DNA from: Bacteroidia bacterium
GTDB taxonomy: Bacteria > Bacteroidota > Bacteroidia > Bacteroidales > GWA2-32-17
Assembly: GCA_016218155.1 (NCBI GenBank)
Contig: JACREQ010000058.1
Coordinates: 1-64,000 of the forward strand
Length of the DNA: 64,000 bases
Direction: 5' to 3'
The notes under the pieces are model-generated. The model had not been told where the DNA came from, did no database searches, and saw only the letters and a list, made by a program, of their open reading frames with translations. Below are positions 35,206 to 56,693 of the stretch, one piece after another. The translations under genes and the position numbers were made by a program. Every line of letters begins with the position of its first letter. Positions within the stretch are counted from its first letter, which is position 1.

Positions 35206-38200
35206 ATGGCATCATTTAACGATTTATTGAAGAAATTTTTCGGTACAAAGTCCGATAAAGATATTAAAATTATTTTCCCTGTAGTTGAACAGGTTAGACA
35301 GGTTTATGTGACATTGCAACAACTTTCAAATGATGAGTTACGTCAGAAATCTGCTGCTTTAAAAGAGAAGATTCATAATTATTATAAAGCTGAGGAAGAG
35401 GAAATTCAGGAACTTAAAGCAAAAGTTGAAGGCGATGATATTAAGGTTGATGAAAAAGAAAATCTTTATAATCAGATTGATAAGATTAAGAAAGAAATAA
35501 ATAATAAAATTGAAGAAATTTTATTGGAAGTTTTGCCAGAAGCTTTTGCAATTGTAAAAGATACTGCAAGAAGGTTTGTAGAAAATGAAAGAGTAGAAGT
35601 TACTGCTTCTGAATTTGACAGAAACATCGCAGCTCAAAGAAGTAGTGTTGTTATAGAAGGTTCTAAAGCAATCTGGTTAAATAAATGGCTTGCAGGAGGA
35701 AATGAAATTACATGGGACATGGTTCATTACGATGTGCAGCTTATTGGAGGTATGGTACTACATCAGGGAAAGATTTCTGAGATGGCCACAGGTGAAGGAA
35801 AAACTTTAGTTGCAACACTTCCTGTATTTTTAAATGCACTTGCCGGTAAGGGTGTTCATATAGTAACAGTAAACGATTATCTTGCTCGTCGTGATAGTGA
35901 GTGGATGGGACCAATTTATGAGTTCCATGGATTATCAGTTGACTGTATTGATAAACATCAACCAAATTCTGTTGCCCGACGTAACGCATATTTGGCCGAT
36001 ATAACATTTGGTACAAATAACGAATTTGGTTTCGATTATCTTCGTGATAACATGGCAATCGGACCAGAAGATCTTGTTCAAAGAACACATCATTATTCTA
36101 TTGTTGATGAGGTTGACTCCGTTTTGATTGATGACGCAAGAACACCACTTATTATCAGTGGTCCAACTCCTAAGGGTGAAGATCAACTTTTTAATGAGTA
36201 TAAATCAAAAGTTGAAAAACTTTCAAATGCTCAAAAAAATCTTGTTAATGATTTTCTGAACCAGGCAAAAAAACTTATTCAGGCTGGCGATACCGAAAAA
36301 GGAGGTATATTGTTATTAAAAGCTCATAAAGGTTTCCCTAAAAATAAAGCACTTATTAAATTCTTAAGTGAGCTTGGAATGAAAACCTTAATGCATAAAA
36401 CTGAAAATGTATATCTTCAGGAAAATGCTAAAAGGATGCCTGAAATTACTGAGGAATTATTTTTTGTGATTGATGAAAGAAACAACTCTGTTGAGCTTAC
36501 AGAAAAGGGTATCGACTTAATAACAAATACCACTGATGATACTCAAATGTTTGTTCTTCCAGATATCGGAAGCAGAATTGCAGAAATAGAAAAATCAGGA
36601 TTAACAGCCGAACAAAAAATAGTTGCTAAAGATGAAATGATTCGCGATTATTCTGTAAAATCTGAAAGGGTTCATACAATTAACCAGTTACTAAAAGCTT
36701 ATTCAATGTTCGAAAAGGATGTAGAATATGTTGTTATGAACAATGCGGTTAAAATTGTAGATGAGCAAACAGGTCGTATTTTAGAAGGTCGTCGTTATTC
36801 TGATGGTTTGCATCAGGCTATTGAAGCAAAAGAGAATGTAAAAGTTGAAGCAGCTACACAAACCTTTGCAACAATTACTCTTCAGAATTATTTCAGAATG
36901 TACCATAAACTTGCCGGTATGACTGGTACTGCTGAAACCGAAGCAGGTGAGTTGTGGAATATTTATAAACTTGATGTTGTAGTAATTCCTACAAATCGTG
37001 CAATGGTTCGTAAGGATATGCAGGATAAGGTTTATAAAACAAAGCGCGAAAAATATAATGCAGTAATCGAAGAAATTGTAGAGTTAACAAATGCAGGAAG
37101 ACCAATACTTGTAGGTACAACTTCTGTTGAGATTTCTGAATTATTAAGCAGAATGTTAAAACTTCGTGGAATAAAACACTCTGTTTTAAATGCGAAATTG
37201 CATCAACGTGAGGCTGATATTGTTGCTGATGCAGGTAGAAGTAGTGTTGTAACAATTGCTACAAATATGGCAGGTCGTGGTACCGATATTAAACTTAGTC
37301 CTGAAGTTAAAGCTGCGGGAGGTTTGGCTATTATTGGTACTGAACGTCACGAGTCCCGTCGTGTTGACAGACAGTTGCGTGGTCGTGCAGGACGACAGGG
37401 TGACCCTGGTTCATCACAATTTTATGTTTGTCTAGAAGATGATTTAATGCGCCTTTTTGGATCAGATCGTATTGCTAGAATGATGGATAGATTAGGTATT
37501 AAAGAAGGTGAAGTTATTCAGCATTCAATGATAACAAAATCCATTGAACGTGCACAAAGAAAAGTTGAAGAAAATAACTTTGGAATCAGAAAGCGTTTAT
37601 TGGAGTATGATGATGTTATGAATTCACAACGTGAAGTTGTATACAGCCGTAGAAGAAATGCACTTTTTGGTGAAAAAGTGAGTGTGGATATTTCAAATAC
37701 TATGTATGATGTTTGCGAATCTATAGTAGGTCAGAATCATGGTAGTACAACATTTGATAATTTTAATCTTGATTTAATAAGATATCTTGCTACTGAAGCA
37801 CCATTTTCTGAAGCAGAATATAAAGCATTGTCGCCAAATGTGCTTACTGAGAAAATTTACGAACAGGTTTATGATAATTATATTCGTAAATGTCAGCAAA
37901 TGGCAAATCAGGCTTATCCTGTAATAAAAGATGTGTTTGAAAAGAGCGGTCAGGTTTATGAAAATATTGTAGTGCCAGTTAGTGATGGAGTTAGAGTTTT
38001 TCAAATTGTTACTAATTTAAGAAAATCTACCGAATCAAAGGGTAAGGAACTTATTCGTTCATTCGAAAAGATGGCAATACTTATTACTATTGATGAAGCA
38101 TGGAAAGAGCATCTTCGTGAAATGGATGAATTAAAACAATCTGTACAGAATGCTGCATACGAACAGAAAGATCCTTTATTGATTTATAAATTTGAATCAT

Positions 38201-38508
38201 TTGAGTTATTCAGAAGTATGATTGATAAAGCAAATCGTGAGATTGTATCATTACTTACAAAAGGACATATTCCAATTCAGGATCCTGAGCAGGTACGTGA
38301 GGCAAAAGCTCCACGAAAACTTGATATGAGTAAGTTTGATACCAGCAGACCTGATGCTGTTGAAAATTCCGGTGGTGGGCAACCAAAACCAGAAGAGCAA
38401 AAGGTTCAACCAATAAGAGTTGAGAAAAAAGTAGGACGTAATGATCCATGTCCTTGCGGTAGTGGTAAAAAATTTAAAAGTTGTCATGGTGTAGGAGTAC
38501 CTCAATAA
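35206..38508 (+). CDS. secA: Protein translocase ATPase SecA
   Basis: SecA drives protein export through SecYEG. The 1100-aa protein shows Walker A in [11 protein letters not shown], the [19 protein letters not shown] motor motif, NBD2 motifs [15 protein letters not shown] and [13 protein letters not shown], and a C-terminal zinc-binding SEC-C motif with [14 protein letters not shown]. It is longer than E. coli SecA (901 aa) because of an insertion after the DEAD region (about residues 320-420) typical of Bacteroidota. It heads a likely operon with a MORN lipoprotein gene (6 bp gap) and asd (10 bp gap). Confidence 0.98.
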
Positions 38509-38514
38509 GAAACT

Positions 38515-39288
38515 ATGTTACAGAAAAATTACTTTATATATTTTTTGTTTGCAGCTTTAGTATATTTTACTTTAAGTTGTTCTCAGGAAACTGTTACAAG
38601 TAAAGAACTAACTAATATTTCTGGAATAACCTGCACAATAAATGATAGTGTTCCATTTACTGGTATTTGTCGCGATTTATATGATAACGGAGATGTTCAG
38701 TCTGAAAAGACATTTGTTGATGGATTGGCTGATGGAAGTTTTTTAAGGTTTTATGAAAACGGACAGAAAAGTGTTGAAGTTATTTATTCTAAAGGTAAAC
38801 CCATTGGTGGCTATAAACAATACTATGAAAGCGGAAAACTAAAAGCTCAGAAAACAGATGATGGCAAAAAGCAGGTTGTTACCCGTTGGTTTGAAGATGG
38901 AACTAAAAGTGGAGAACAACATATGGAAGATAATGTTCTTACTGGTAAATCTGAGCAATGGTATAAAAATGGTAAATTGGAATTAACATCAACTTACAAA
39001 AATGATAAGCGGGTAGGTCAGTTTAAGGTTTTTTTCGAAAGTGGAAAAGTGAAAATTGAAGGAAATTATGTGGATGGACAGCTTGACGGAAACTGGAAAG
39101 TTTGGAATGAAAACGATCAGGTGATTTCTGACGAAACCTATAAACTTGGAAAGAAAACAGGTATATGGAAATATTATTATGACAATGGAAAACAAAAGTC
39201 AGAAGTTATATTTAAAGATGAACTTGTAAAACAAAATAAAGAATGGGACGAAAACGGAAAACTTATAAATTCATTTTCGGCCGAATAA
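38515..39288 (+). CDS. MORN/YwqK-repeat lipoprotein
   Basis: This 257-aa lipoprotein has a signal peptide ending at Cys22 (FTLSC). It contains about eight repeats of roughly 22 residues with the pattern Y-x-N-G-K-x-x-x-E-x-x-Y-x-x-G, the MORN-like variant found in YwqK. Databases often call this family a toxin-antitoxin antitoxin, but no toxin gene is present. The repeats probably form a long beta-sheet on the envelope. It lies between secA and asd and seems cotranscribed with both. Confidence 0.85.
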   Translation: MLQKNYFIYFLFAALVYFTLSCSQETVTSKELTNISGITCTINDSVPFTGICRDLYDNGDVQSEKTFVDGLADGSFLRFYENGQKSVEVIYSKGKPIGGYKQYYESGKLKAQKTDDGKKQVVTRWFEDGTKSGEQHMEDNVLTGKSEQWYKNGKLELTSTYKNDKRVGQFKVFFESGKVKIEGNYVDGQLDGNWKVWNENDQVISDETYKLGKKTGIWKYYYDNGKQKSEVIFKDELVKQNKEWDENGKLINSFSAE

Positions 39289-39298
39289 AGACTAAAAT

Positions 39299-40291
39299 AT
39301 GAAAGTTGCTGTAGTTGGTGCTACCGGACTAGTTGGAGGTGTAATGCTTAAAGTTTTAGAAGAGCATAATTTTCCTTTGACCGAATTATTACCTGTTGCT
39401 TCAGAAAAATCTGTTGGGAAAAAAGTGCTTTTTAAAGGTCAGGAAATTTCTGTTATTGGCGTAAAAGAAGCGATAAATGCGCATCCTGCTATAGCTATCT
39501 TTTCAGCAGGTTCTTCAACCTCTTCAACATTTGCACCGGAGTTTGCGAAATTGGGAACAACAGTTATTGATAACTCTTCGCAATGGAGAATGTTTCCAAA
39601 TGTCCCATTGATAGTTCCTGAAGTAAATTCACACGTTTTAAGGCACGAAAATAAAATTATTGCAAATCCGAATTGTTCAACAATTCAAATGGTTTTAGCT
39701 TTAGCGCCTTTGCATAAAAAATATAAAATTAAAAGATTGGTGGTTTCAACATACCAGTCGGTTACAGGCACTGGTGTAAAGGCAGTTCAGCAACTTAAAA
39801 ATGAAAGAGCAGGAATTGCAGGTGAAATGGCTTATCCTCATCAGATTGATTTAAACTGTTTCCCACATGGAGGAACATTTTTAGCTGATGGTTGTACAAC
39901 AGAAGAGCAAAAACTGGTAAAAGAAACTCAAAAGATTCTTGGCGATAAAACTATACAGATTACGGCAACTGTTGTTAGAGTTCCTGTAATTGGCGGACAC
40001 TCAGAAGCTGTAAATATAGAATTTGAAAATGATTTTGATTTAGCAGAAGTAAATTCTTTGTTAAAATCAATGCCGGGTATTGTAGTTATTGATAACCCTA
40101 ATGCTAATGAGTATCCAATGCCAATAAACGCAGAAGGAAAAGATGAGGTTTTTGTTGGTAGAATCCGAAGAGATTTGTCGCGTGAGAAGTGTTTAAATTT
40201 GTGGATTGTTGCTGATAATTTAAGAAAAGGTGCAGCAACAAATGCAATCCAGATTGCCGAATTTCTTTATAAACAGGAATGGGTTAAATAA
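39299..40291 (+). CDS. asd: Aspartate-semialdehyde dehydrogenase
   Basis: This 330-aa NADPH-dependent enzyme reduces aspartyl phosphate to aspartate semialdehyde for lysine, threonine, methionine and diaminopimelate synthesis. GATGLVGG (residues 7-14) binds the dinucleotide. The catalytic Cys126 lies in NPNCST, and a conserved His is in VIGGHSEAV. Length is normal. It follows the MORN lipoprotein gene by 10 bp in the secA transcript. Confidence 0.97.
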   Translation: MKVAVVGATGLVGGVMLKVLEEHNFPLTELLPVASEKSVGKKVLFKGQEISVIGVKEAINAHPAIAIFSAGSSTSSTFAPEFAKLGTTVIDNSSQWRMFPNVPLIVPEVNSHVLRHENKIIANPNCSTIQMVLALAPLHKKYKIKRLVVSTYQSVTGTGVKAVQQLKNERAGIAGEMAYPHQIDLNCFPHGGTFLADGCTTEEQKLVKETQKILGDKTIQITATVVRVPVIGGHSEAVNIEFENDFDLAEVNSLLKSMPGIVVIDNPNANEYPMPINAEGKDEVFVGRIRRDLSREKCLNLWIVADNLRKGAATNAIQIAEFLYKQEWVK

Positions 40292-40299
40292 AATTTAAT

Positions 40300-40400
40300 T
40301 GTCATGTTGAGAGAAGCGAAACATCTGGTACCTAATGCTCAAACTAGATTTTACTCCGATGTTGTAGAGTAAGAAAATAGTTCTTCGCTATTCTCATAAT
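40300..40400. repeat. Extragenic repeat (GTCATGTTGAG type)
   Basis: The segment starts with TGTCATGTTGAG, then GAAGCGAAACATCTGG, and runs to a CTTCGC/TTCTCAT end. It resembles an extragenic repeat I know from Bacteroidota intergenic regions. It separates asd from the lipoprotein gene at 40426. No coding capacity is seen. Confidence 0.5.
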
Positions 40401-40425
40401 TTTAAAAGTGTTTTTTAATTAAAGA

Positions 40426-40830
40426 ATGTATAACAAATTTCTCATATTTATTTTCTTAACTGTATTGGTATCGTCCTGTATCGATAATCGTGCGCCAAGT
40501 GGTATAAGCAGTATAGTTTATTATGGCGAAGGAGATTGTATGCCTCCGGTAAATGTTGCTGCCAGAACTTTTGATTTATACAATGGTAATGTGTACGTTG
40601 TTGAAAGAAGTTTAGCGCTTGCTTTTGATGAAAATCATTATGACTCACTTAAAACATTGTCATATGTTACAGAAGCTAAAAATGGTGGATTCTCTTTACT
40701 GGTTCCTCCGGGAAGTTATTATATAATGCCAGATACAATGTTTTATGTCTCTGATGATAATTTTGTTACTGTACATCCTGATGATTTAATCGATCGTGAG
40801 TTCAAGTTTTTTAAGTGTACAACTTTCTAA
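40426..40830 (+). CDS. Lipoprotein of unknown function (134 aa)
   Basis: This short protein has a lipoprotein signal ending at Cys18 (VLVSSC). The mature part (about 115 aa) starts with a flexible stretch and then a beta-rich domain. A segment near the middle (GGFSLLVPPGSYYIMP) resembles a carboxypeptidase-regulatory or transthyretin-like fold, in which a loop PPGSY is common. No further function can be assigned. It is separate from neighbours by repeats on the left and an AT-rich 179-bp gap on the right. Confidence 0.65.
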   Translation: MYNKFLIFIFLTVLVSSCIDNRAPSGISSIVYYGEGDCMPPVNVAARTFDLYNGNVYVVERSLALAFDENHYDSLKTLSYVTEAKNGGFSLLVPPGSYYIMPDTMFYVSDDNFVTVHPDDLIDREFKFFKCTTF

Positions 40831-46180: not shown

Positions 46181-46279
46181 GATTTTTAATTAAGAAGTAA
46201 ATAAATATTTATAAAAATACTTTGTTTTAACTTCTTTTTCAAATGTTTATTAGCATTTTATTTTTGTTGTAAACAATAA

Positions 46280-46304
46280 AGCCAAAGAATTTTCTTTGGC
46301 TTTA
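46280..46304. terminator. Terminator of the polyproline peptide gene
   Basis: AAGCCAAAG and CTTTGGCTT arms surround AATTTT at about 46279-46303. The hairpin directly follows the minus-strand stop codon at 46309 and has a T-rich 3' side on that strand. Confidence 0.65.
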
Positions 46305-46308
46305 TAAA

Positions 46309-46476
46309 TTAGAAAGTTAATTGAGTAGGAGGTTTAATAGGTGGAGGAGGTGGAGGAGGAGGATTTTCTGTTCCAATAGGAGGATCTTCTGTGTTTGCTT
46401 TTATAATGTTTGAAAATCCTAAGTTTATAATAGCAACTATTGCTATTATACTGAAAGTTTTAAGAATGTTTTTCAT
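46309..46476 (-). CDS. Small secreted proline-rich peptide (55 aa)
   Basis: This is a 55-codon frame with ATG at 46476 and TAA at 46309. It has a signal peptide or membrane anchor (about 1-28, with hydrophobic IIAIVAIINLGFSNI). The short tail is TEDPPIGTEN, eight consecutive prolines, then IKPPTQLTF. No known family is recognised. Two features support it as real. A copy of the ECF-like promoter motif sits at the right distance upstream (46504-46531), and a terminator hairpin follows the stop directly. It is divergent from the TPR-CHAT gene. A role as sensor, export signal or protease substrate is a guess. Confidence 0.7.
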   Translation of the reverse strand: MKNILKTFSIIAIVAIINLGFSNIIKANTEDPPIGTENPPPPPPPPIKPPTQLTF

Positions 46477-46503: not shown

Positions 46504-46531
46504 ATAGTCGAATGAGATGTAATTAGTAACC
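46504..46531 (-). promoter_or_regulatory. ECF-like promoter motif, copy 1 (polyproline peptide gene)
   Basis: On the minus strand GGTTACTA (46524-46531), 12 nt, TCGACTAT (46504-46511) and then GGG. The -10-like part ends 27 nt before the ATG at 46476. The same two-part motif occurs upstream of the sigma gene itself and two further genes in this window. Confidence 0.75.
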
Positions 46532-46562
46532 ACGATAATCTATTTTTTATTAAAAAATTATG

Positions 46563-46588
46563 TTGAAAGTCTAAATTCCGTATCTTTG
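46563..46588 (+). promoter_or_regulatory. House-keeping promoter of the TPR-CHAT gene
   Basis: TATCTTTG at 46581-46588 is a good -7 element, with TTG at 46563-46565 upstream (15-nt gap). Transcription would start near 46595, 16 nt before the ATG at 46611. So the CHAT gene seems constitutive and outside the ECF-like regulon. Confidence 0.5.
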
Positions 46589-46610
46589 GAGTTGCACTTT
46601 TTATTTGAGA

Positions 46611-49600
46611 ATGAAAGCAATAATGATTTTATTCTTTTGTCTTTTAATTCTTAGTATTAATACTAAGAATATTATTGCGAGAAATATTTATTCTAATAAT
46701 GAAAAGAAAGTTAATAGTTTAATAGAACAAGGAAATATTCGTTTATCTGTTTTTGAAATAGATAGTGCATTGTTTTATTTTACCGAAGCGCTTGTAATCA
46801 GCAAACAAAATAAGTTAAGCAAAAAGGAATTATCTATTCATTTAATAATTTCAAATTGTTATACTTCGATTAAAGAATTTAATAAAGCAAAAGATGAATT
46901 AAATTATTCATTAATTATTTTAAATTCAATTAATGTAAAAAATGAATTAAAATCAGATTACTTTTTTTCATTAGGTTATTATAATTATTGTAAAGGCGAT
47001 TTTGTTGAAGCAGAAATAGCATATAAGAAAGCATTATTTTATAAAAAAGATAATGATTTCTCAATTATTTTGGAATTGGAAAGAAGTTGTTTAAAACAAA
47101 ATAAACTAAAAGATGCGAGTATTTATTTAAATAAAATTGATTTAATTTCAGATTCTTTGTGGTTGATTTATTCAATGAGTTTTGATTATGCATTATTAGA
47201 AATAGCTCAATTGAATTTTAAAAATAATATTTGTAATAATGATATTAACATTCTCCCTTTTTTAAGTATTTTAGAAAAAAAGGATACTTTTTCGAGTAAT
47301 AAAGCTAGAGCATATCATTATCAGTGTTTGGGTTTGGTATATAGGTACTTAGAGGATTATTCAAAAAGCTTGAAGTATCTTAAAATTGCCTACGATGAAT
47401 GTAATGCAATTAATGACGATACTAAATATCTTTCTTTAATTTCACTTAGTCATAATTTGCTTAATATTTATTCTAAAATAAGTGATTTCTCAAAAGCTGA
47501 GATGTTTTATAATAAAATATTATTGTATAAAAAAAGGTTGAGATCATCTAATAATATAGATGATTTTGAATTATTTTGTTCAGTTGGAGTTAATTATTTC
47601 TTAAAAAAAGATTATTTAGAATCTATTAAATTTCTTGATTCGGCTTTGGTTTATTCAAAAAATATTACTCCTGACGCAAAGGCAAACTTGTATGATTATT
47701 ATGCATTAGCATATTCTGCTTTAGGTGAATATTCAAAGAGCAATGAACATTTTAAAAAAGCACTTTTCTTCAGACAAAAACAAAATCCAATAAATATTCA
47801 TAATCTTTCTAAAGACTATCAGAATTATTCTGAACTACTAATGAAAATGGGTAGGTCTAAAGAAGCAATTGCAATGGGGAAAAAGTCATGTAAGCTTATT
47901 CAACAGGTAATGGGACAAAAAAGTAGTTCTAGTTCAATAGCATTAACATCTATTGCAAATATTTATCTGGATAGTAAGGATTATAACAATGCTCTGATAA
48001 ATTTTGATAAAGCTTTGTTAGCTGCAAGTTCAGAATCATTAATAAGCGAGAAAAAATTATTTCCAAAATCGGCTTCTGTTGTATACCCTGTGGCATATTT
48101 AAAAGCATTAAAAGGAAAAGCTTCTGCATTATTTGTTATGAGTAAAGGAAAGGAAGCACAACTTGAAAAAAGCCTTCTTTGTTATAATGAAGCTATTTAT
48201 TTGTTAGAAAAGATAAGAAGTGCAAACCAGTTTGATGAAGATAAACTATTGCTAACAGAAAATGAGAACTCAATTTATAATTCGGCTGTACAGGTTGCAT
48301 ATGAGCTGTATAAAATATCTGGCAAAGATGAATATTTAAACACCGCTTTTAATATTTCGGAGAGAAATAAAGCAACTGTGTTACGTGAAAAAGTTTCATT
48401 GTTAAATAAATTCCCTGAAGGCTCACAACAATACTCACTATATCAGAAGGACCAGAAATTACGAAAAGAAATTTCTAGTCTGGAACGTAAAATACCAATG
48501 TCAAATTCAATAGAGGCATCAAAATTAAAAGAACAGCTTTATAAATTGTATGATGATCAGGAAGCATTCTTCACGATGTTAAAAGATAAATATCCGAAAT
48601 TATACGATTCGTGGATTTCTTCTGAATGTATGAGTATTGCTGCTGTACAAAAAAAGTTATTGAATACTGAAAGTCTGGTTGAATATATTCTTGCAGATTC
48701 AACATTATACACAATAATTATTAGTAAAACCGGAAAAGATTTTATTAAAACGGTTTTACCCGGTAATTTTAAAGAAAATATGTATAAATACATTGATGAG
48801 ATTTCTTGTGCAGGTGCTGATGCCACAACTATTAAAGGTTTTAATTCCTTTATTCAGAATTCTTATAGCTTGTATTCAGTAATACTTAAACCTGTAAAGA
48901 ATCTTATAAAGAAGAACTCACTTATTATTGTTTCTGATGGTGTACTGAATTTATTGCCTTTTGAAACTTTGCTAACAAATAACTATAACAACTCACATGT
49001 AGATTATCGTTATCTGCCATATTTAATAAAGGAAAGATCTGTAAGCTATGCTAATTCTGCTACATTATACTGCAGTTCAGGGAAGACTGATAATAAAACA
49101 CCTAAAAATATTCTTGCTTTTGCCCCAGGTTATACTTCGTCAAATTCGGCAATAGCTGAAGTTGTAACACGTTCATTCTATTCACCGTTAAGGGGAGCAA
49201 AAGAGGAAGTAAATAGTTTTAACGGTATTTTAAATGGCGATTATTTTTTTAATAACGAAGCAACCGAAACAGAATTTAAAAACAGGGCAAATGATTATTC
49301 AATTATTCATATGGCAATGCACGGTCAGGCTGATGCTGATGATTCGGGTAATTCGAGGTTAATATTCGAGAATGGCGGAAAAGGAAATGATGGTTTTCTT
49401 TATGCATGGGAAATTTATAATATGAATTTAAACCCTGATATGGTAGTATTAAGTGCATGTAATACTGGAACTGGTAAACTTAGAAAAGGTGAAGGTGTTA
49501 TGAGTTTAGCAAGATCTTTTTCTTATGCAGGTTGCCCAAGTGTTGTAATGACACTATGGTCTATAAGCGACTTAAGCAGTACTGATTTGATGAAATATTT

Positions 49601-49841
49601 TTATAGTAATTTGTCACTTGGAGATAATAAAGCGGAGGCCTTGCAGAAAGCGAAAACTGAATATATTACTCAAACCAGTCCTATGAAATCTCATCCTTAT
49701 TATTGGGCAGGATATGTTGTTATAGGCGATAAGTCACCGGTTGAAATCGATTCGCATATAAACAAAATGTTTTATACTTCGTCAGTTTCTCTTGCAATAT
49801 TGGCACTGGCTTTTGTTTTTGTTAGAAGAAGATTTAAGTAG
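46611..49841 (+). CDS. TPR-CHAT protein (caspase-like protease)
   Basis: This 1076-aa protein starts at ATG 46611 with a signal peptide or anchor (about 1-22). TPR helices span about 30-460 and a helical linker about 480-680. The CHAT domain (about 685-1040) is a caspase/separase-type cysteine protease. Its dyad is complete: His904 in HMAMHGQ and Cys950 in LSACNTG. A C-terminal membrane segment ends in RRRFK (about 1052-1076). If the N-terminal signal is cleaved, the TPR and CHAT domains lie in the periplasm, and the C-terminal helix anchors the protein. This differs from cytoplasmic TPR-CHAT proteins such as Csx29. A sigma/TPR pair and an ECF-like regulon lie within 4-7 kb, suggesting a signalling role. 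Confidence 0.9.
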   Translation: MKAIMILFFCLLILSINTKNIIARNIYSNNEKKVNSLIEQGNIRLSVFEIDSALFYFTEALVISKQNKLSKKELSIHLIISNCYTSIKEFNKAKDELNYSLIILNSINVKNELKSDYFFSLGYYNYCKGDFVEAEIAYKKALFYKKDNDFSIILELERSCLKQNKLKDASIYLNKIDLISDSLWLIYSMSFDYALLEIAQLNFKNNICNNDINILPFLSILEKKDTFSSNKARAYHYQCLGLVYRYLEDYSKSLKYLKIAYDECNAINDDTKYLSLISLSHNLLNIYSKISDFSKAEMFYNKILLYKKRLRSSNNIDDFELFCSVGVNYFLKKDYLESIKFLDSALVYSKNITPDAKANLYDYYALAYSALGEYSKSNEHFKKALFFRQKQNPINIHNLSKDYQNYSELLMKMGRSKEAIAMGKKSCKLIQQVMGQKSSSSSIALTSIANIYLDSKDYNNALINFDKALLAASSESLISEKKLFPKSASVVYPVAYLKALKGKASALFVMSKGKEAQLEKSLLCYNEAIYLLEKIRSANQFDEDKLLLTENENSIYNSAVQVAYELYKISGKDEYLNTAFNISERNKATVLREKVSLLNKFPEGSQQYSLYQKDQKLRKEISSLERKIPMSNSIEASKLKEQLYKLYDDQEAFFTMLKDKYPKLYDSWISSECMSIAAVQKKLLNTESLVEYILADSTLYTIIISKTGKDFIKTVLPGNFKENMYKYIDEISCAGADATTIKGFNSFIQNSYSLYSVILKPVKNLIKKNSLIIVSDGVLNLLPFETLLTNNYNNSHVDYRYLPYLIKERSVSYANSATLYCSSGKTDNKTPKNILAFAPGYTSSNSAIAEVVTRSFYSPLRGAKEEVNSFNGILNGDYFFNNEATETEFKNRANDYSIIHMAMHGQADADDSGNSRLIFENGGKGNDGFLYAWEIYNMNLNPDMVVLSACNTGTGKLRKGEGVMSLARSFSYAGCPSVVMTLWSISDLSSTDLMKYFYSNLSLGDNKAEALQKAKTEYITQTSPMKSHPYYWAGYVVIGDKSPVEIDSHINKMFYTSSVSLAILALAFVFVRRRFK

Positions 49842-49851
49842 TAAAACTGAG

Positions 49852-50140
49852 TTCTTTCTCGATTTTCTTTGCTCTATCCGCTGCGGCAGCGAAGCGATTA
49901 GGTATTTGTAATTATTTTAAATGGTTTATATCTTCATGTCACTGTTAGTGAGATGGCGGGTCATGCTAGCCATGATGTTCTTCTTTCGTCATTGCGTGCC
50001 ACGACACGCAATCTCATTTGTTACTTCTCGATATGCTTAGCTTCCTCCGCAGCGGCGGAGCGGTGGACGAAGTAGCAACCGGGATTTTCTTTTCACTCGC
50101 TCGCATCTTGCGAGTGAGGCTCCTCACTTCGTATAAATTA
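49852..50140. repeat. Intergenic repeat cluster (49842-50142)
   Basis: This 300-bp gap holds no gene. It contains degenerate GC palindromes at about 49877-49896 (CCGCTGCGGCAGCG) and 50044-50063 (CCTCCGCAGCGGCGGAGCGG). An inverted repeat with arms ATTGCGTG and CACGCAAT lies at 49991-50012, followed by a TTACTTCTCGATATGCTTAG unit and CGAAGTAGCAACCGGG. A short inverted repeat CACTCGCTCGCA/TTGCGAGTG is near 50095-50117. The same units recur at 51.4-52.0 and 61.3-61.7 kb. Confidence 0.8.
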
Positions 50141-50142
50141 TC

Positions 50143-51369
50143 TTAATTACTTGTTTTAAATTTTTCTACTTCTTTAAAAACCCTCATAAAATTACCACCC
50201 CATATTTTAATAATCTGTTCTTCGGTATAGCCACGTTTTACAAGTTCCTTTGTTATGTTTTTCATTTCAGATACGTCGTAACAACCAATAACATCGCCAC
50301 CTCCATCAAAATCAGTTCCTATGCCAACATGATCGATTCCAGCTATCTTCACCATGTGATCAATATGATCAATAACATCTGTAACATTAGCCAAAATAGG
50401 TGGATAATTTACATCAAGCTGATGCCATTCCCTAATCCCGTTTCTTCTTTGTTCATCGTTATAGTTTGCCCAATTGCTGTGTTTAATTTCAAATGCTGCA
50501 TGTGCGCTATCTCTTGCAGGATAAGAAGGCATCTTTTTTACATAATCACTTAAAATACACATTTGAATTACACCACCATTTTTAGCAAGTGCAATGAGCA
50601 TTTCATCTGAAAGATTTCGTGGGTTATCACATAATGCACGGGAGCAAGAGTGAGAAGCAATAACCGGTGTCTTTGATAATTTAAGAACATCGTAAAATGT
50701 GCTGTCGGAAGCGTGTGATACGTCAATCATAATACCCAGATTGTTCATTCTTTTAACAACTTGCTCACCAAATGGGGATAATCCTTTAAATAAAGTAGTG
50801 TCTGTTGACGAATCTGCTATGTGGTTATTTCTTGTATGAACTAATGTTATGTAGCGAATACCTTTTTTGTAGAAATAATCAATATTCTCAATTTTGTCTG
50901 CTAAAGCATAGCCGTTTTCAATTCCTAAATAAATGGCTCGTTTATTTTCTTTTTCTAAACGATAACCATCTTCATGAGTAATCGCAATTTCAGCTTTGGC
51001 AGGATAAGCATTTATTGCTTTATAAACTGCATCAATAATCTGGTTGGTCTGATTAAATGCTTTTTCCAATCCTATGCTATCCTGATTTCCCTGTCCAACA
51101 AATGCTGCAAAAAACGAAGCATCCAGATCACCTGCCTCCATTCGTGGAATATCATATTTGGTTCCTGTTTCTTTTGCATTATGCGATTTCCCAATGTCAA
51201 AGTCTTCACTCATTAATACTAATGGACTGTCGCAATGAGAGTCGATGGTGAAAGCTTTTTTGTGAATAAGTTCAGTTCTTTTTTCTATAGATTTGCACGA
51301 TGTTAATAAAACAAGTGTAGAAATAAGAAAATATATTACGTAAAATGAAGATAATTTAATTGAAGTCAT
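50143..51369 (-). CDS. Lipoprotein membrane dipeptidase (M19 family)
   Basis: This 408-aa zinc dipeptidase of the renal-dipeptidase (M19) family has a lipoprotein signal ending at Cys25 (LLTSC) when started at ATG 51369. The longer frame (start 51432) would begin inside the repeat, so the shorter one is preferred. Metal-binding motifs are visible: HCDSP (HxD), GIENGYAL, DVSHASD, ASHSCSRAL with NPRNLSDE, and GIGTDFDGG. It cleaves dipeptides, including D-amino-acid-containing ones, on the envelope. It lies inside the CHAT-sigma region but has no visible ECF-like motif. Confidence 0.93.
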   Translation of the reverse strand: MTSIKLSSFYVIYFLISTLVLLTSCKSIEKRTELIHKKAFTIDSHCDSPLVLMSEDFDIGKSHNAKETGTKYDIPRMEAGDLDASFFAAFVGQGNQDSIGLEKAFNQTNQIIDAVYKAINAYPAKAEIAITHEDGYRLEKENKRAIYLGIENGYALADKIENIDYFYKKGIRYITLVHTRNNHIADSSTDTTLFKGLSPFGEQVVKRMNNLGIMIDVSHASDSTFYDVLKLSKTPVIASHSCSRALCDNPRNLSDEMLIALAKNGGVIQMCILSDYVKKMPSYPARDSAHAAFEIKHSNWANYNDEQRRNGIREWHQLDVNYPPILANVTDVIDHIDHMVKIAGIDHVGIGTDFDGGGDVIGCYDVSEMKNITKELVKRGYTEEQIIKIWGGNFMRVFKEVEKFKTSN

Positions 51370-51429
51370 AAATAATTTTTTAGTAGGATTGCTTTTCTGA
51401 ATGTAAAAGTATAAAATAAATCTTATTTC

Positions 51430-51549
51430 CATTTTTCGTCATTGCGTGCCACGACACGCAATCTCATATTGCTTTGCTTAATGTGTTACTTTTCGAGTTT
51501 GTTGAGCACTATATGTATTCTGGTTTCGTTACTTCTCGATATGCTTCGC
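51430..51549 (+). repeat. 120-bp direct repeat, unit 1
   Basis: This unit and the one at 51616-51735 agree at 112 of 120 positions by manual alignment. Each holds the ATTGCGTG/CACGCAAT inverted repeat (51441-51462 here) and ends in TTACTTCTCGATATGCTTCG. It overlaps no predicted gene once the dipeptidase is started at 51369. Confidence 0.85.
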
Positions 51550-51615
51550 ACTCGAAGTAGCAACCGGGATTTTTCTGTACCTGTGGTCTGGGTGTAAGGA
51601 CTGATCTCTACTCTA

Positions 51616-51735
51616 CATTTTTCGTCATTGCGTGCTACGACACGCAATCTCATATTGCTTTGCTTATCGTGTTGCTTTTCGAGTTTGTTGAGTACTATAT
51701 GCATTCTGGTTCTGTTACTTCTCGATATGCTTCGC
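51616..51735 (+). repeat. 120-bp direct repeat, unit 2
   Basis: Second copy of the unit at 51430-51549, separated from it by 66 bp. The inverted repeat is at 51627-51648. A degenerate GC palindrome (CCGTAGCGGCGG) follows at about 51741-51752. Confidence 0.85.
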
Positions 51736-51800
51736 TTTCTCCGTAGCGGCGGAGCGGTGGGCTAAATAGCAATATTATTGGTTGAAATTATCAATTATGC

Positions 51801-51900
51801 TAGTCCGCCGCGGTGGAGAGTTTATCGAGAACTTCAGGAATTTTGGTTCTGTTACTTCTCGATACGCTTCGCTCCGCCGCGGCGGACGAAGTAACAACCA
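51801..51900. repeat. Extragenic repeat with nested perfect GC palindrome
   Basis: GTTACTTC and its reverse complement GAAGTAAC (about 51851 and 51890) flank a CTCGATACGCTTCG unit and the palindrome TCCGCCGCGGCGGA (about 51872-51885). A second, imperfect palindrome copy (CCGCCGCGGTGG) lies at about 51804. With the 120-bp units and three hairpins this makes a 600-bp non-coding island. Confidence 0.75.
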
Positions 51901-51914
51901 GGATTTTGTATCTG

Positions 51915-52009
51915 CAGTCAGGTCTTTCGACCTGACTGTTTTAATATTTGAATGTCGGGTCAAAAGACCCGACATCAAATGAATCCTCTGGTCTGTGCGC
52001 TACAGACCA
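51915..52009. repeat. Three consecutive perfect hairpins
   Basis: Hairpin 1: CAGTCAGGTC (51915-51924), loop of 4, GACCTGACTG (51929-51938). Hairpin 2: ATGTCGGGTC (51952-51961), AAAA loop, GACCCGACAT (51966-51975). Hairpin 3: TGGTCTGT (51989-51996), loop of 5, ACAGACCA (52002-52009). They lie just downstream of the stop of the minus-strand TPR gene (52037). No T-run follows on the minus strand, so simple terminators are not a full explanation. Confidence 0.85.
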
Positions 52010-52036
52010 CATTACATAATTTTTGAAAATTGTTAT

Positions 52037-52789
52037 TTATTCTATCTTCTTAATCAATTTCTCAGCCTCTTTTACATAAACTGATTTATTGTCAATAAGT
52101 TTTTGCAAAACCGGAATTGCTTTTTCAGGTTTGTTTAGCTGAATATATGTCAAAGAAAGATACCAAAGGCAATCTTCGTGCATACCATTAGTTTCATCTT
52201 TTGATGCATCAAGTAATAAACTTTCTGCCATGGTAAAATTGCCAAGTTCCATGTACGACAAACCTTTTACCAGATTTACCAATATATTGCTACTGCTGTT
52301 TTCGTGCGAAAGCAGTTTTATACTTTCATCATATTTGCCATTCTGATATGCAATAAATCCTTTTTCTATATTTAATAACGAATCATCTGCAGAACGCGAA
52401 ATTGCATCAATATTTAAAGGTTTATAATACTGTGCATATAATTCCTTATTGGATTGTTTAGAATAAAAAATGTAATAGCCGAATACCGAAATTGAAACAA
52501 TTAATGCAACAGAAGCTGCAATTTTATAAATGAAGAACCTGTTATTTTTTGATTTTTCTATATTCTTTTCAGGAGCCATTGAGTAAAAATATCTTGATTC
52601 GGCATTATTTAATGCCTCCTTAAAATCGGCTCTTTTATTATAGTCATATATAACATTGTTTACTTCATTATATAATGCAAACTCTTTTTCTAAGACTTTA
52701 TCGGTTGATAATTGTTTTAAAAAATCGGTTTTTTCTGTTTCCGACATACTACCATCTAGGTATCTCTCGAATAGTCCATGGTTTTCCAT
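52037..52789 (-). CDS. Single-pass TPR protein with anti-sigma-like N-terminus
   Basis: This 250-aa protein is encoded directly after the sigma gene and overlaps it by 41 bp, so the two are translated together. Residues 1-60 (FERYLDGSMSETEK, then KEFALYNEVNNVI) have the pattern of the cytoplasmic N-terminus of Bacteroidota anti-sigma factors without zinc ligands. One membrane helix follows (about 86-109). The periplasmic part has TPR helices (about 128-250, for example KGFIAYQNGKYDESIKLL). I propose it is the anti-sigma or sensor partner. A simple TPR scaffold remains possible. Confidence 0.7.
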   Translation of the reverse strand: MENHGLFERYLDGSMSETEKTDFLKQLSTDKVLEKEFALYNEVNNVIYDYNKRADFKEALNNAESRYFYSMAPEKNIEKSKNNRFFIYKIAASVALIVSISVFGYYIFYSKQSNKELYAQYYKPLNIDAISRSADDSLLNIEKGFIAYQNGKYDESIKLLSHENSSSNILVNLVKGLSYMELGNFTMAESLLLDASKDETNGMHEDCLWYLSLTYIQLNKPEKAIPVLQKLIDNKSVYVKEAEKLIKKIE

Positions 52790-53345
52790 CGCTTAATTCT
52801 TTTAATAGTGGATCATTATAAATCTTCTTAAATAATTCTTGTTTACACCTTAGTCTTCTGTTTTTTGTAAATTGTTCACTACTCATGTTTAATTTTAGAG
52901 TGACTTCAGTTATTGAATTTCCCTCAATAAATAATCTTAATAGTTCTTTACATTTTTCGCCCAGCTTACTAAAATGCTTTGCTATTAGTCTTTTTCTGTC
53001 TTCATTAGTTATATAACCTATAATATTAGTGTCCGATTCAATTTCTATATTCTCATCAATTATTAATTTTCTTTTAGTGGTTCTTATTTTATCAATCATT
53101 CTTCTTTTACATACGGCTATCAGAAAAGTGATGAATTTATACTGAAGTATTAAAGGAGGATCAGCCATTAAAGCTGAATAAGCCGTTAATAGGCCATCTT
53201 GGAAGATGTCTTTTGCATCATCCTTATTGCCATAATACTTATATAATATAATCTCTTCAATCACCGGGTAATAGTTTTGATATATAAAGTTAAGAACCTC
53301 AGAACTGTTAGACTTTAATCCTTCAATTATTTTGTCATTTGTCAT
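52749..53345 (-). CDS. ECF-like RNA polymerase sigma factor
   Basis: This 198-aa sigma-70-family protein has region 2 at about 15-95 (YYGNKDDAKDIFQDGLLTAYSAL, then ITFLIAVCKRRMIDKIR) and region 4 at about 130-180 (LGEKCKELLRLFIEGNSITEVTLKLNMSSEQF, a helix-turn-helix). It lacks regions 1 and 3, as in ECF sigmas. I start it at ATG 53345 because longer frames would run through its promoter. The ECF-like motif lies 17 nt upstream (53362-53389), suggesting autoactivation. A 41-bp overlap couples it to the TPR protein gene. Confidence 0.9.
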   Translation of the reverse strand: MTNDKIIEGLKSNSSEVLNFIYQNYYPVIEEIILYKYYGNKDDAKDIFQDGLLTAYSALMADPPLILQYKFITFLIAVCKRRMIDKIRTTKRKLIIDENIEIESDTNIIGYITNEDRKRLIAKHFSKLGEKCKELLRLFIEGNSITEVTLKLNMSSEQFTKNRRLRCKQELFKKIYNDPLLKELSDGKPWTIREIPRW

Positions 53346-53361
53346 ATCAGTTCCGTACCCC

Positions 53362-53389
53362 ATAGTCGATGAAAAGTGAAATAGTAACC
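53362..53389 (-). promoter_or_regulatory. ECF-like promoter motif, copy 2 (sigma gene)
   Basis: On the minus strand GGTTACTA (53382-53389), 12 nt, TCGACTAT (53362-53369) and GGGG. The end of the -10-like part is 16 nt before the ATG at 53345. It suggests that the sigma factor drives its own gene. Confidence 0.8.
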
Positions 53390-53434
53390 CCAAAAGTAAA
53401 TAAATATTTTTTTTTATTTTTTTTAAATTTTAAT

Positions 53435-53463
53435 GGTTACTAATTGATATCATCTTCGACTAT
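53435..53463 (+). promoter_or_regulatory. ECF-like promoter motif, copy 3 (gene at 53508)
   Basis: On the plus strand GGTTACTA (53435-53442), 13 nt, TCGACTAT (53456-53463) and AGG. It faces away from copy 2 across a 45-bp AT-rich spacer, so the two form a divergent promoter pair. Confidence 0.78.
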
Positions 53464-53507
53464 AGGAATTATTTAATAGGTATAATTCATTTTAATAACT
53501 TAAAAAT

Positions 53508-53837
53508 ATGGTTATGGCAAATGTATTCAGCAAAAAAGAATGGATTTCTGATTTGGAGTATCAGTCAGAAATTGAAACTACTACCGAATGGTTTAATGTA
53601 GATGCAGTATGCAAATACAGAAATGGCACCGCTGTAATTATTATTGTAAATATTTTGCATGAAGTGCAGAAAATTACAGTTGCCGACAAAGGTTTACTAA
53701 AAGATATTGTTATTAATTTTTTTAGTAATAAGAAAAATAGCGACAATAAATTTAAGATTTTGTATACAAAAGATATTAAAACTGCAAATATTGTATATGA
53801 AAGATTAATGGATCTTTATTTTAATGATAAAGACTAA
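53508..53837 (+). CDS. Unknown protein in the ECF-like regulon (109 aa)
   Basis: I do not recognise a family. ATG occurs at 53508 and again at 53514, giving 109 or 107 aa. There is no signal peptide or membrane segment, so it is probably cytoplasmic. It has mixed alpha/beta character, with a hydrophobic strand GTAVIIIVNIL near residues 44-54 and an acidic, Lys-rich end. It is divergent from the sigma gene and has its own motif copy, which makes a role in the circuit plausible. A regulator or small enzyme is equally possible. Confidence 0.65.
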   Translation: MVMANVFSKKEWISDLEYQSEIETTTEWFNVDAVCKYRNGTAVIIIVNILHEVQKITVADKGLLKDIVINFFSNKKNSDNKFKILYTKDIKTANIVYERLMDLYFNDKD

Positions 53838-53914
53838 TTGTTTAATATTTAAAGTATTTTAAATAAAATATATAAATTGCAGAAATTAAAAATAAATAAA
53901 AAAAACAACAAACT

Positions 53915-54976
53915 ATGTTCTACAACTGCCACATTCATACGTTTAAAGATACCGATGTGCCACGTAAATTTTTACCGTTGGGACTGGTTAGAATTCTTTC
54001 AACTACTGTAGGTTTTAATTTAATCTCAAAAGCATTAAATTACCTGAATCCGTTTTCGGATAAAGATACATATGACAGATATGTGAAATTTGTTAGGATT
54101 GGACGACTTGGCTCGCAGGAAAATATTTTTAACGAATGTAGAAGGTATTATCCAGATGACACAAAATTTGCAATTCTGCCCATGGATATGGCATTTATGG
54201 GAGCAGGCGATGTACCACGAAAATACGACGAGCAAATAATAGAGCTTTCTGATTTAACAAAAAAATATCCTCAGATAATTCCTTTTATTCATATCGACCC
54301 GCGTAGAGAGGGATTTATGGAACTTCTTAAAAAATCTGTTGAAGAGTGGGGAATAAAGGGAGTAAAAATTTATCCTTCACTTGGTATTTTCCCATACGAT
54401 GAAAGGCTTTATCCTGTTTACGAATATTGTGTTAAAAATAATTTGCCTGTAATTACTCATTGCAGTCCTTATAATCCTGTTCATTTTAAAGGAAAGGATA
54501 AAGAATTGCGTACGTTGTTATCAAAATCTAAAATACCTATAGATTATAAAGGTAAAAAACGAAAAGAGCTTTGTGCCAATTTTACTAACCCAAAAAACTG
54601 GGAATATGTTTTAAATGATTTTAAAACTCTTAAATTATGTCTGGCACATTTTGGCTCCTCATATTTCTGGAATGAATATTTAGAAAACCCCGGTAGTAAC
54701 GATAATTGGTTTGTTACAATAAAAGATATGATACCAAAATACGAAAATTTATATACCGATATTTCTTTTACACTTAGCGAACAGGAATATTTCCCATTAT
54801 TAAAAGTATTGTTAAGCGATACTGTGCTTAAAAACAAAATACTTTTTGGCTCCGATTATTATATGGTAGAAACCGAAGCTACCGAACGCCGCTTTGCACT
54901 CGATCTGCGTGCATATATAGGCGAAGAAAACTTTACAGCTATTGCAGTAAATAATCCTAAAGTGTTTTTTGTTTAA
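53915..54976 (+). CDS. Amidohydrolase-superfamily metal-dependent hydrolase
   Basis: This 353-aa protein has a TIM-barrel amidohydrolase pattern. HIHTF (HxH) is near the N-terminus at residues 6-10. PFIHIDPRREG lies near 127, ITHCSP near 183, LAHFGSSYF near 245 and LFGSDYYM near 308 (the terminal Asp). The fold resembles amidohydrolase-2 enzymes (decarboxylases and lactonases of the ACMSD type), but the substrate is unknown. It starts 77 bp after the gene at 53508 on the same strand and may share its ECF-like promoter. It has no signal peptide, so it is cytoplasmic. Confidence 0.85.
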   Translation: MFYNCHIHTFKDTDVPRKFLPLGLVRILSTTVGFNLISKALNYLNPFSDKDTYDRYVKFVRIGRLGSQENIFNECRRYYPDDTKFAILPMDMAFMGAGDVPRKYDEQIIELSDLTKKYPQIIPFIHIDPRREGFMELLKKSVEEWGIKGVKIYPSLGIFPYDERLYPVYEYCVKNNLPVITHCSPYNPVHFKGKDKELRTLLSKSKIPIDYKGKKRKELCANFTNPKNWEYVLNDFKTLKLCLAHFGSSYFWNEYLENPGSNDNWFVTIKDMIPKYENLYTDISFTLSEQEYFPLLKVLLSDTVLKNKILFGSDYYMVETEATERRFALDLRAYIGEENFTAIAVNNPKVFFV

Positions 54977-55394
54977 AATGTAGCATTAAGTTTAAAATGT
55001 ACTTTTATGTAATAACAATTTTCAAATACTTTTATGTATATTTTATTAAAATATTTTGTCTTTCAAATAAAAGTATTGTAAATTTGAAACTTGAACATGA
55101 AAATGTTAGAATACGTTCTTTAAATAATATTTGTAGCGTTTATTGTTATTCTGAAATAAAAATCTCGCAGTTTTTCAAGCATACAGGAATAATAAGTAAT
55201 ACGCCACGCCAAAGGCGTGGGGTTGCTTATTTGTATGCGGGCTTCGCGAGAGCCTTTATTTCATTTAATGTAATTCCCATGCCCTTTTTTTTGTAAAAAA
55301 ATGAAATGACTGGGTTACTTTTTGAATACATAAACGACTATAGTTAGAAAGGAAATTATTTATGTCTTTAATATTAACCCTAAAATTTCAAACT
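54977..55394. other. Non-coding gap with inverted repeats and an ECF-like promoter
   Basis: The 418-bp gap before the tail-fiber gene holds no convincing gene. It contains CCACGCC/GGCGTGG (55204-55210 and 55214-55220) and GGCT/AGCC arms around a TCGCGAG core near 55240-55254, which resemble the repeat clusters at 50, 51.5 and 61.5 kb. The ECF-like promoter copy 4 lies at its right end. Confidence 0.6.
55313..55341 (+). promoter_or_regulatory. ECF-like promoter motif, copy 4 (tail-fiber/GH16 operon)
   Basis: On the plus strand GGTTACTT (55313-55320), 13 nt, ACGACTAT (55334-55341) and AG. It differs from the other three copies at the last base of the first box and the first base of the second. 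It ends 53 nt before the ATG at 55395. Confidence 0.65.
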
Positions 55395-56693
55395 ATGAGA
55401 AAACTATTTTTGATTTCGTTTATCTGTTTAGCTACTACAGCTATTTCTTTTGCACAATTAAAAGTATTAACAAATGGAAATGTTGGTATTAAAAATACTA
55501 ATCCTTCAAGACCATTTCACGTAACTGGTAGCGCAGTTTTCACATCAGGTACAACAATCAGTTCTTTTTCTCCATACATAAGGGGAAAAAACGGTACAAC
55601 AACCGCTTCTTCGCCTGAATATTCTTGGGTAAATGATTCAACAACCGGAATTTTTCATCCTGCAACCAATATTTTAGGTTTCACAATAGGAGGTTCCGAA
55701 AAATTAAGAGTGGAGTCTGATGGGGATGTTTGTATTGGAGTAACATCTTCAAGTAATCAGGGAAAAGTTTATATCCAACAAACCAATTACAATGCTACAA
55801 GTTTGCGAGTTTTTAAAAACGCAACGGGAACATTTGGTTACAATTTTGTTTCTCAAGTTTTAGATACTGCAACTAAATCAATAGTATCACAAATTTCAGG
55901 AGTCGATAAATTCTGTGTTTTTGGAAACGGAAAAACTCAAATTGGTGCCGTTTTTTCTCCAACACCTCATATGTTGACTGTTTGGGGGACTACTTATAGC
56001 TATCAAGGTTATTATAGTTCTGATATTCAATATAAACAAAACATTACCCCTGTTGCAACAGCAATTGACAAATTGAACCAACTTAACGGTGTAAGATATT
56101 CTTATAACAGTGCTGCATTTCCTCAAATGAATTTTCCATCAGGTTTCACTTATGGAGTAATTGCACAGGAAGTTCAAGCAATATTGCCGGAATTAGTTCA
56201 GACCGATTCTACAGGTTATCTTGCTGTAAACTATGATGGATTAATACCAATTTTGATTGAAGCTATAAAAGAACAACAAGTTACAATAAAAAATCAGGAA
56301 TATCGCTTAAATACTGTGGAAACCGACCTTGTTAACTGTTGTAACATTAAACCAAGTAGTACTGAAAAATCAACAATTATTTCTGGTGGTAACGGTGAAA
56401 ATAATTCAATAGAAAAACAAAATGGAAGTTCAAATCCATCTCTATACCAAAATATACCAAACCCATTTAAAGAAAAAACAACTATACGATATTATTTGCC
56501 AAATGAAAGCACCATGGCATCACTCCTTGTTTTTGACATGAACGGAAAACTAATTAAAACATATCCTATTAATTCAACAGGTAATGGAAATATTGAAATA
56601 AATGGAGGCGAACTGCAACCCGGAATGTATATGTACAGTCTTATTGCAAATGGCAAAGAGGTCGATACAAAGAAAATGATTTTAACAGAATAA
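55395..56693 (+). CDS. Tail-fiber/endosialidase-chaperone protein with T9SS sorting domain
   Basis: This 432-aa protein starts at ATG 55395, giving a clean signal peptide (about 1-20, ending SFAQ). The next part resembles phage tail-fiber-like beta repeats. The peptidase-S74-like intramolecular chaperone domain lies at about 205-310 (SDIQYKQNITPV, then GVIAQEVQAILPELV and LIPILIEAIKEQQ). A T9SS type A domain ends the protein (starting near 355 with SLYQNIPNPFKEKTTIRY). Such fusions are found on Bacteroidota surfaces and are probably adhesive trimers. It is the first gene of a probable operon with the GH16 gene 20 bp downstream. Confidence 0.88.
   Translation: MRKLFLISFICLATTAISFAQLKVLTNGNVGIKNTNPSRPFHVTGSAVFTSGTTISSFSPYIRGKNGTTTASSPEYSWVNDSTTGIFHPATNILGFTIGGSEKLRVESDGDVCIGVTSSSNQGKVYIQQTNYNATSLRVFKNATGTFGYNFVSQVLDTATKSIVSQISGVDKFCVFGNGKTQIGAVFSPTPHMLTVWGTTYSYQGYYSSDIQYKQNITPVATAIDKLNQLNGVRYSYNSAAFPQMNFPSGFTYGVIAQEVQAILPELVQTDSTGYLAVNYDGLIPILIEAIKEQQVTIKNQEYRLNTVETDLVNCCNIKPSSTEKSTIISGGNGENNSIEKQNGSSNPSLYQNIPNPFKEKTTIRYYLPNESTMASLLVFDMNGKLIKTYPINSTGNGNIEINGGELQPGMYMYSLIANGKEVDTKKMILTE

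Follow-up and report, generated by a model that had tools for sequence, protein, structure and literature searches.

A probable self-activating ECF sigma factor regulon in an uncultured Bacteroidota bacterium and its putative link to a membrane-anchored TPR-CHAT protein

The known systems nearest to the locus described here are DdvS/DdvA of Myxococcus and Craspase. A further point of reference is the RpoE/RseA/DegS switch, in which a one-pass anti-sigma factor is cut by an envelope protease, the trypsin-like DegS, and the sigma factor activates itself. In the excerpted text of PMC4374960, DdvS of Myxococcus xanthus is an ECF sigma factor that is active once its anti-sigma factor has been inactivated and that is required for the promoter PddvS. 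The PDB entries 8rot and 8rw5 carry the title transmembrane anti-sigma factor DdvA and the molecule name CHAT domain-containing protein. Craspase, according to the excerpted text of PMC10028731, comprises the TPR-CHAT protein Csx29, the sigma inhibitor Csx30 and CASP-sigma, and the same text mentions the envelope-stress switch RpoE/RseA/DegS. No description of the module reported here was found in the open-licence literature searched.

The locus lies in a window (the whole stretch of DNA analysed) of 64,000 nt, taken from a genome of 4,783,172 bases in 113 contigs, here called G000. The module comprises a sigma factor, a one-pass membrane anti-sigma factor that includes a TPR domain, a TPR-CHAT protein that is encoded separately and anchored in the membrane, and a secreted poly-proline peptide. 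Its parts lie as follows:

46276-46305, minus strand: terminator-like hairpin 3' of the peptide gene (-16.3 kcal/mol, z -6.2)
46309-46476, minus strand: gene for a 55-aa secreted poly-proline peptide with a hydrophobic N-terminus and EDPP...PPPPPP
46611-49841, plus strand: TPR-CHAT protein (Pfam CHAT, 201.4 bits) with an N-terminal signal or anchor and a C-terminal membrane helix
52037-52789, minus strand: membrane anti-sigma-like protein of 250 aa (Pfam TPR_2, one membrane helix)
52749-53345, minus strand: ECF sigma factor of 198 aa (Pfam Sigma70_r2, NCBIfam TIGR02937)

The Pfam scan covered nine proteins around the sigma gene. The sigma factor matched Sigma70_r2 with 31.2 bits (cut-off 24); Pfam gave no separate match to region 4, which binds the -35 element, and the TIGR02937 match (48.8, cut-off 42.9) spans residues 19-161. 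The listed ORF starts with TTG at 53393, and the ATG at 53345 is the more likely start. Sequence searches with the sigma factor returned no PDB match at E 0.01 and no plasmid match. Its C-terminus (..PRW) is kept in the relatives G002, G006 and G072. The anti-sigma gene overlaps the sigma gene by 41 nt (52749-52789), and in the same three relatives its orthologs also adjoin sigma with a 41-nt overlap. The protein has one membrane helix at about residues 84-108, followed by a C-terminal TPR domain (model pLDDT 84.7; TPR match 2xev, E 1.8e-3). An adjacent membrane anti-sigma factor is characteristic of ECF sigma factors and is matched here by the overlapping gene with one membrane helix; binding of sigma by this protein is predicted.

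A sequence-only reading of this DNA had reported four copies of a two-part motif in the window, each in the correct orientation shortly before a start codon, and no further copy. The pattern GGTTACTW-N12/13-WCGACTAT indeed gave exactly four matches in the 64,000 bases, at the claimed coordinates and strands, and none in 100 shuffles; no fifth copy was found with this strict pattern. The distances between the second box and the start codon also agreed with the claim. The two boxes are present, but the conservation is longer than had been described, extending to TGGTTACTAnTT ... TCGACTATnGG. The copies and the genes predicted to be their targets are listed below.

46504-46531, minus strand: candidate ECF-type promoter, copy 1 (exact pattern, 49.7 bits), 27 nt before the start of the 55-aa poly-proline peptide ORF
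53362-53389, minus strand: candidate autoregulatory ECF-type promoter, copy 2 (exact pattern), 16 nt before the sigma ATG
53435-53463, plus strand: candidate ECF-type promoter, copy 3 (exact pattern, 36.4 bits), divergent from copy 2 and 44 nt before the ATG at 53508
53508-53837, plus strand: 109-aa protein, predicted target of copy 3, with no match in Pfam, PADLOC or PHROGs
53915-54976, plus strand: amidohydrolase, second gene after copy 3 (Pfam Amidohydro_2, 68.8 bits)
55313-55341, plus strand: candidate ECF-type promoter, copy 4 (exact pattern, 30.9 bits, the weakest of the four), 20 or 53 nt before the ATG at 55362 or 55395
55395-56693 (ATG also at 55362), plus strand: S74-domain secreted protein, predicted target of copy 4 (Peptidase_S74 54.7; Por_Secre_tail, the type IX secretion tail, 37.0)

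When the window was scanned with a weight matrix, the four copies scored 30.9-49.7, compared with 5.6 for the best stretch unrelated to them; because the ten genomic sites described below were used to build the matrix, the scores of those sites are circular. A two-part promoter that includes the one before its own gene, as is characteristic of an ECF sigma factor, is present at the sequence level. The conserved TCGACTATnGG may mark where the transcript start falls, and transcript 5' ends would be expected just downstream of TCGACTAT. A primary-sigma promoter, whose consensus is TAnnTTTG, was rejected as the identity of the motif, since by eye no such element was seen at the sites; a palindromic operator was rejected because the motif is not a palindrome.

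The four copies are the full set for the window and only part of that for the genome, where the strict pattern occurs ten times, six of them outside the window, compared with zero for the reversed control and a chance expectation of about 0.026. The relaxed pattern GGTTAC-N14/16-CGACTA returned the identical ten copies, again with no match for the reversed control. The boundary of the pattern is sharp, because dropping the last two bases of the second box, which leaves CGAC, brings 14 copies versus 15 in the control; a common motif was rejected on this fall to control level. Occurrence throughout the genome regardless of start codons had been named in advance as an outcome that would speak against the proposal. 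All ten copies in the 4.78 Mb lie upstream of a same-strand ORF, at distances of 16, 20 (or 53), 25 (37 to the ATG), 27, 44, 90, 130, 135, 170 and 205 nt, given as a plain count over same-strand ORFs of at least 35 codons without a random-site background. A sequence model ranked the ten sites at E 3.2e-7 or better, a circular result for the 16 sites from which it was built, and its next listed match in G000 (E 0.09) is the -35 half of the promoter of a paralogous sigma factor.

The predicted targets of the six sites outside the window, by contig of G000, are:

C10: a receiver gene with a LytTR gene after it
C32: a large secreted SprB-repeat protein
C47, two sites: a PAS protein and a 1106-aa metallophosphoesterase
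C59: an HTH gene, followed by a small peptide that resembles a precursor (TIGR04149, below cut-off) and by a radical-SAM maturase
C78: the gene of a 217-aa protein, followed by genes for a Cys-rich peptide, a radical-SAM maturase (TIGR04148, 219 bits against a cut-off of 300) and a pseudo-rSAM protein (TIGR04150, 56.5 bits against a cut-off of 250)

The peptide-modification clusters on C59 and C78 would be co-transcribed from the motif. In searches of five relatives, an ortholog of the 217-aa protein was found in G002 alone; for the HTH protein one was found there too, and a fragmentary one in G003. Behind the HTH gene of G002 come genes for a class I lanthipeptide leader peptide (46.6 bits against a cut-off of 22) and a LanC-like protein. 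RiPP-like clusters headed by small regulators were observed at L105:3779-5946, L106:346-6990, L249:542-2980 and L283:566-6002, the last judged by eye alone; a motif copy precedes such clusters in G000 (C59, C78) and in G002 (C215). PADLOC, run on five proteins, gave one weak match, to the C47 metallophosphoesterase (L104:11440-14760), which also has a partial match to NCBIfam DS8_antiphage (70.7 bits, cut-off 790), and it is possible that this is a defence gene under the control of sigma. Two further stretches were noted. One, at 54997-55296 of the window and L251:1969-2322, is conserved before S74-domain genes and reads as an ORF, and it may be a dispersed non-coding element. The other is a short repeat, with the translation ..RRGGEFIEN.., of which at least two genomic occurrences were spotted by eye, at 51782-51982 of the window and at L104:8279-8509.

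The looser pattern was counted in 149 genomes, namely G000 and 148 relatives, and occurred ten times in G000 and at most four times in any other genome, with up to eight matches in the reversed controls. Sigma factors related to that of the window were found in G006 (57% identity), G002 (44%), G003 (43%, cut by a contig end) and G072 (37%). The second adverse outcome named beforehand, absence of the motif before the same genes in relatives, applied in part to G006: the sigma gene lacks the motif, but GGTTACTATTT...ACGACTAT stands before the gene of a 49-aa secreted poly-proline peptide, divergent from a CHAT gene whose product is 43% identical to that of the window, which is the arrangement of copy 1. 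In G002 a drifted form, GGTAACTWTTT...GTCACTAT versus GGTTAC/CGACTAT in the window, occurs at exactly three places: before the sigma gene, before a gene that diverges from CHAT and encodes a 48-aa poly-proline peptide, and before the gene of an 84-aa HTH protein 69% identical to the G000 target on C59. In G003 it precedes the sigma gene, so that both genomes have an equivalent of copy 2. The drifted pattern, which was written after the sites had been seen, gave three matches in G002, one in G003 and none in the other eight of ten genomes, and its reversed control gave one each in G002 and G006. The strongest evidence that sigma reads the motif is this drift of motif and sigma together at matching genes, which, with the site kept before the G006 peptide, speaks for the earlier proposal of a promoter of this sigma factor including autoactivation.

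Some weaker matches were also recorded. A further imperfect match of the model in G002 (C104, E 1.2e-4) has no start codon nearby in its direction. The G002 ortholog of the C78 target lies near a contig start, and its upstream region contains an N run and GGTTAC without a clear second box. A match in G105 (E 1.3e-4) was taken as chance, the stretch reading through as coding by eye, as was a second relaxed match in G006 (C152), which is inside a 484-aa ORF.

Orthologs of sigma and CHAT were not found in the close relatives G001 and G004, both listed as 100% complete. This absence is real at the syntenic place, because their contigs run through from homologs of 38071-40830 and the dipeptidase (50143) to a homolog of 62880 without the module between them. 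One site nevertheless remains in G001, where the gene behind it corresponds to the C32 target and 278 nt of promoter and leader are 72% alike. Five remain in G004: two are exact, two are degenerate, and the fifth, with a 30-nt core, is the equivalent of copy 4 and precedes a homologous S74-domain gene. Loss of sigma, with the sites as decaying relics, probably explains this pattern best. In G004 (C82, L096:2290-2830) a row of four motif copies, of which two are exact and two degraded, stands before a LytTR gene; one of the four lies in 173 nt that are 77% identical to the promoter and leader region of the C78 target in G000, and no ORF of 40 codons directly follows that copy.

The sites in genomes that lack the window's sigma factor could also mean that they are read by a different, genus-wide paralogous sigma factor, of which the window's sigma would be merely one target. 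A candidate lies at L098:2814-4458 (G000 C44), next to an anti-sigma factor with a fused Trypsin_2 domain (in the G000 copy), and has counterparts in L100, L101, L109 and L110. It is conserved in G001 and G004, and its own promoter has the same -35 half, GGTTACTTTTT, conserved in five genomes together with a distinct AT-rich -10 region; because of this, the -35 half is not specific. That promoter is, however, without the CGACTAT half. G002 and G003, in which the motif and the window-type sigma have drifted together, have the paralog too, and three of the six sites in G001 and G004 are imperfect, as expected of relics, so control by the paralog appears very unlikely. Still less probable is a binding site for an ordinary transcription factor in place of a promoter. 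The strong conservation beyond the two boxes would suit such a site, but the motif is non-palindromic, with two boxes, a spacer varying by one base and a single fixed orientation, it is placed before start codons, and a similar layout is found before many sigma genes of the family. The four motifs are very probably promoters read by the self-activating sigma factor of the window. A further pairing of a sigma factor with a TPR anti-sigma factor, with a small HNH-type protein after it (Pfam HNH match on the L099 copy only), was observed at L099:1659-3195 and L094:3669-5584, and in G006 this set immediately precedes the gene orthologous to the window's sigma.

The TPR-CHAT protein has hydrophobic segments at about residues 1 and 1054, and its hydrophobic start and C-terminal membrane helix imply that the bulk of the protein should face the envelope. 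In an alignment of the window's sequence with 20 of the 49 CHAT loci described below, H901, H905 and C951 are invariant in 21/21 sequences. A weak match (E 0.039) aligns H905 and C951 with a His and a Cys of a CHAT chain from Craspase; the catalytic His/Cys pair of CHAT proteases is present by sequence, and protease activity is predicted. The structure model (pLDDT 81.5, below 50 at residues 953-962, adjoining C951) matches DdvA, separases and Csx29 and has a CHAT fold. The separase match 5fby covers the CHAT part (residues 570-1048; Z 26.2, rmsd 3.3 over 317). DdvA ranks first in Foldseek (E 3.7e-15), with a low TM-score of 0.22, and the 8rw5 chain aligns with Z 22.9 and rmsd 5.8 over 593 residues; the best structural match of the model is 8eex_B of Craspase (Z 31.0, rmsd 10.4 over 462 residues). 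Matches of this type are inflated by TPR repeats, and Foldseek returned low TM-scores. By sequence, only TPR proteins were among the PDB matches listed for the whole protein (27 in one search, the best 60 of 337 in another), and the CHAT domain alone gave eight weak matches, seven of them to CHAT proteins. The poly-proline peptides of G000, G006 and G002 share EDPP, a run of at least six prolines and a hydrophobic N-terminus. With narrow criteria, only the G006 copy of such a peptide was found beside CHAT in the 49 CHAT loci of the wider family. Rfam gave nothing at gathering level in eight sources.

The wider family was surveyed in the best 80 of 391 sigma relatives from one scan, whose rows are not independent because many are close relatives (Aquimarina, Lentimicrobium). 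A -35-like word, GGTWAC or TTACCTTT, lies within 110 nt upstream of sigma in 48 of the 80 loci (24 with GGTWAC, 24 others with TTACCTTT), mostly at 45-63 nt; the words were chosen after the enriched 6-mers had been seen. Among upstream 6-mers of 79 loci, GGTAAC was observed 17 times versus 1.4 in mononucleotide shuffles, and GGTTAC seven times versus 1.1. Because of these 48 loci, self-activation looks family-wide among these sigma factors. The word is present in 33/49 CHAT-linked loci and, since 15/31 loci without CHAT also have it, it is not a marker of CHAT linkage alone.

By tblastn at E 1e-5, 49 of the 80 loci encode a CHAT domain within the stretch that was fetched, as do 27 of the 46 with both 10-kb flanks; in 44 of the 49 it is on the strand opposite sigma. 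As a base rate, ten whole genomes contained 22 matches to the CHAT protein. These counts, with the one prevailing orientation, argue against the CHAT gene being an unrelated neighbour without a role in the sigma switch. A chance neighbour would be consistent with the dipeptidase gene between CHAT and sigma in the window, with their location on different contigs in G002 and with the 31 loci lacking CHAT, many of which are incomplete. CHAT orthologs were found among ten genomes in G000, G002 and G006 only, which are all three with an intact sigma, and none was found in G003 (74% complete, cut sigma). Moreover, the peptide gene adjoining CHAT has the motif of sigma in three genomes. We consider an unrelated CHAT gene unlikely, though less so than either of the other readings of the motif.

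The reading that we favour is that the ECF sigma factor reads the sites and its own gene, that the anti-sigma factor holds it and that the CHAT protein is involved in its release, and we give this explanation as a whole a probability of about 0.87. The position, orientation and rarity of the sites and the change of the motif together with sigma in relatives were seen directly in the DNA. We infer that sigma binds the motif and that the anti-sigma factor keeps it at the membrane; with less certainty, its release would involve the membrane-anchored TPR-CHAT protein, possibly by cutting the anti-sigma factor. In the proposed mechanism, the product of 52749-53345 would recognise the sites as -35 and -10 promoter elements; the anti-sigma factor would hold this sigma at the membrane until the TPR-CHAT protein, acting on the anti-sigma factor as an envelope protease or sensor, sets it free. 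Free sigma would raise its own level, lead to production of the secreted poly-proline peptide, perhaps with feedback on the TPR or CHAT parts, and switch on secreted proteins, regulators and at least two peptide-modification clusters. A Bacteroidota-wide form of signalling, with an envelope-facing TPR-CHAT protein as the first cutter of a separate anti-sigma factor, peptide feedback and activation of RiPP clusters, is a tentative extension that we regard as doubtful.

The self-activating ECF sigma regulon is very probably real and of a known kind. It provides a sharply bounded regulon of ten sites for an uncultured bacterium and a promoter code that follows the changes of its sigma factor; the sigma family in Bacteroidota is often linked to membrane-anchored CHAT proteins, and two of the regulon targets point to the control of modified peptides. 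As in DdvS/DdvA, an ECF sigma factor is combined with a membrane anti-sigma factor. To judge from the PDB names, the CHAT part of DdvA is within the anti-sigma chain itself, whereas in the window the anti-sigma factor (52037-52789) and the TPR-CHAT protein (46611-49841) are separate and a secreted peptide is added. With Craspase, as far as the excerpted text describes it, the locus has in common an ECF sigma factor, a putative inhibitor of it and a predicted CHAT protease that contains a His/Cys pair; Craspase is driven by a CRISPR effector, whereas the CHAT protein of the window has a signal and a membrane anchor. The one-pass anti-sigma factor, the proposed cut by an envelope protease and the self-activating sigma factor are like those of RpoE/RseA/DegS, with a trypsin-like DegS there and CHAT here; the fused Trypsin_2 domain belongs to the anti-sigma factor of the C44 paralog. 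The pairing of sigma with a gene for a membrane-tied caspase-like protease suggests a new layout of a known sigma-release switch, in which the link between CHAT and anti-sigma factor, a single chain in Myxococcus and a CRISPR side-arm in Craspase, takes the form of a module of separate genes.
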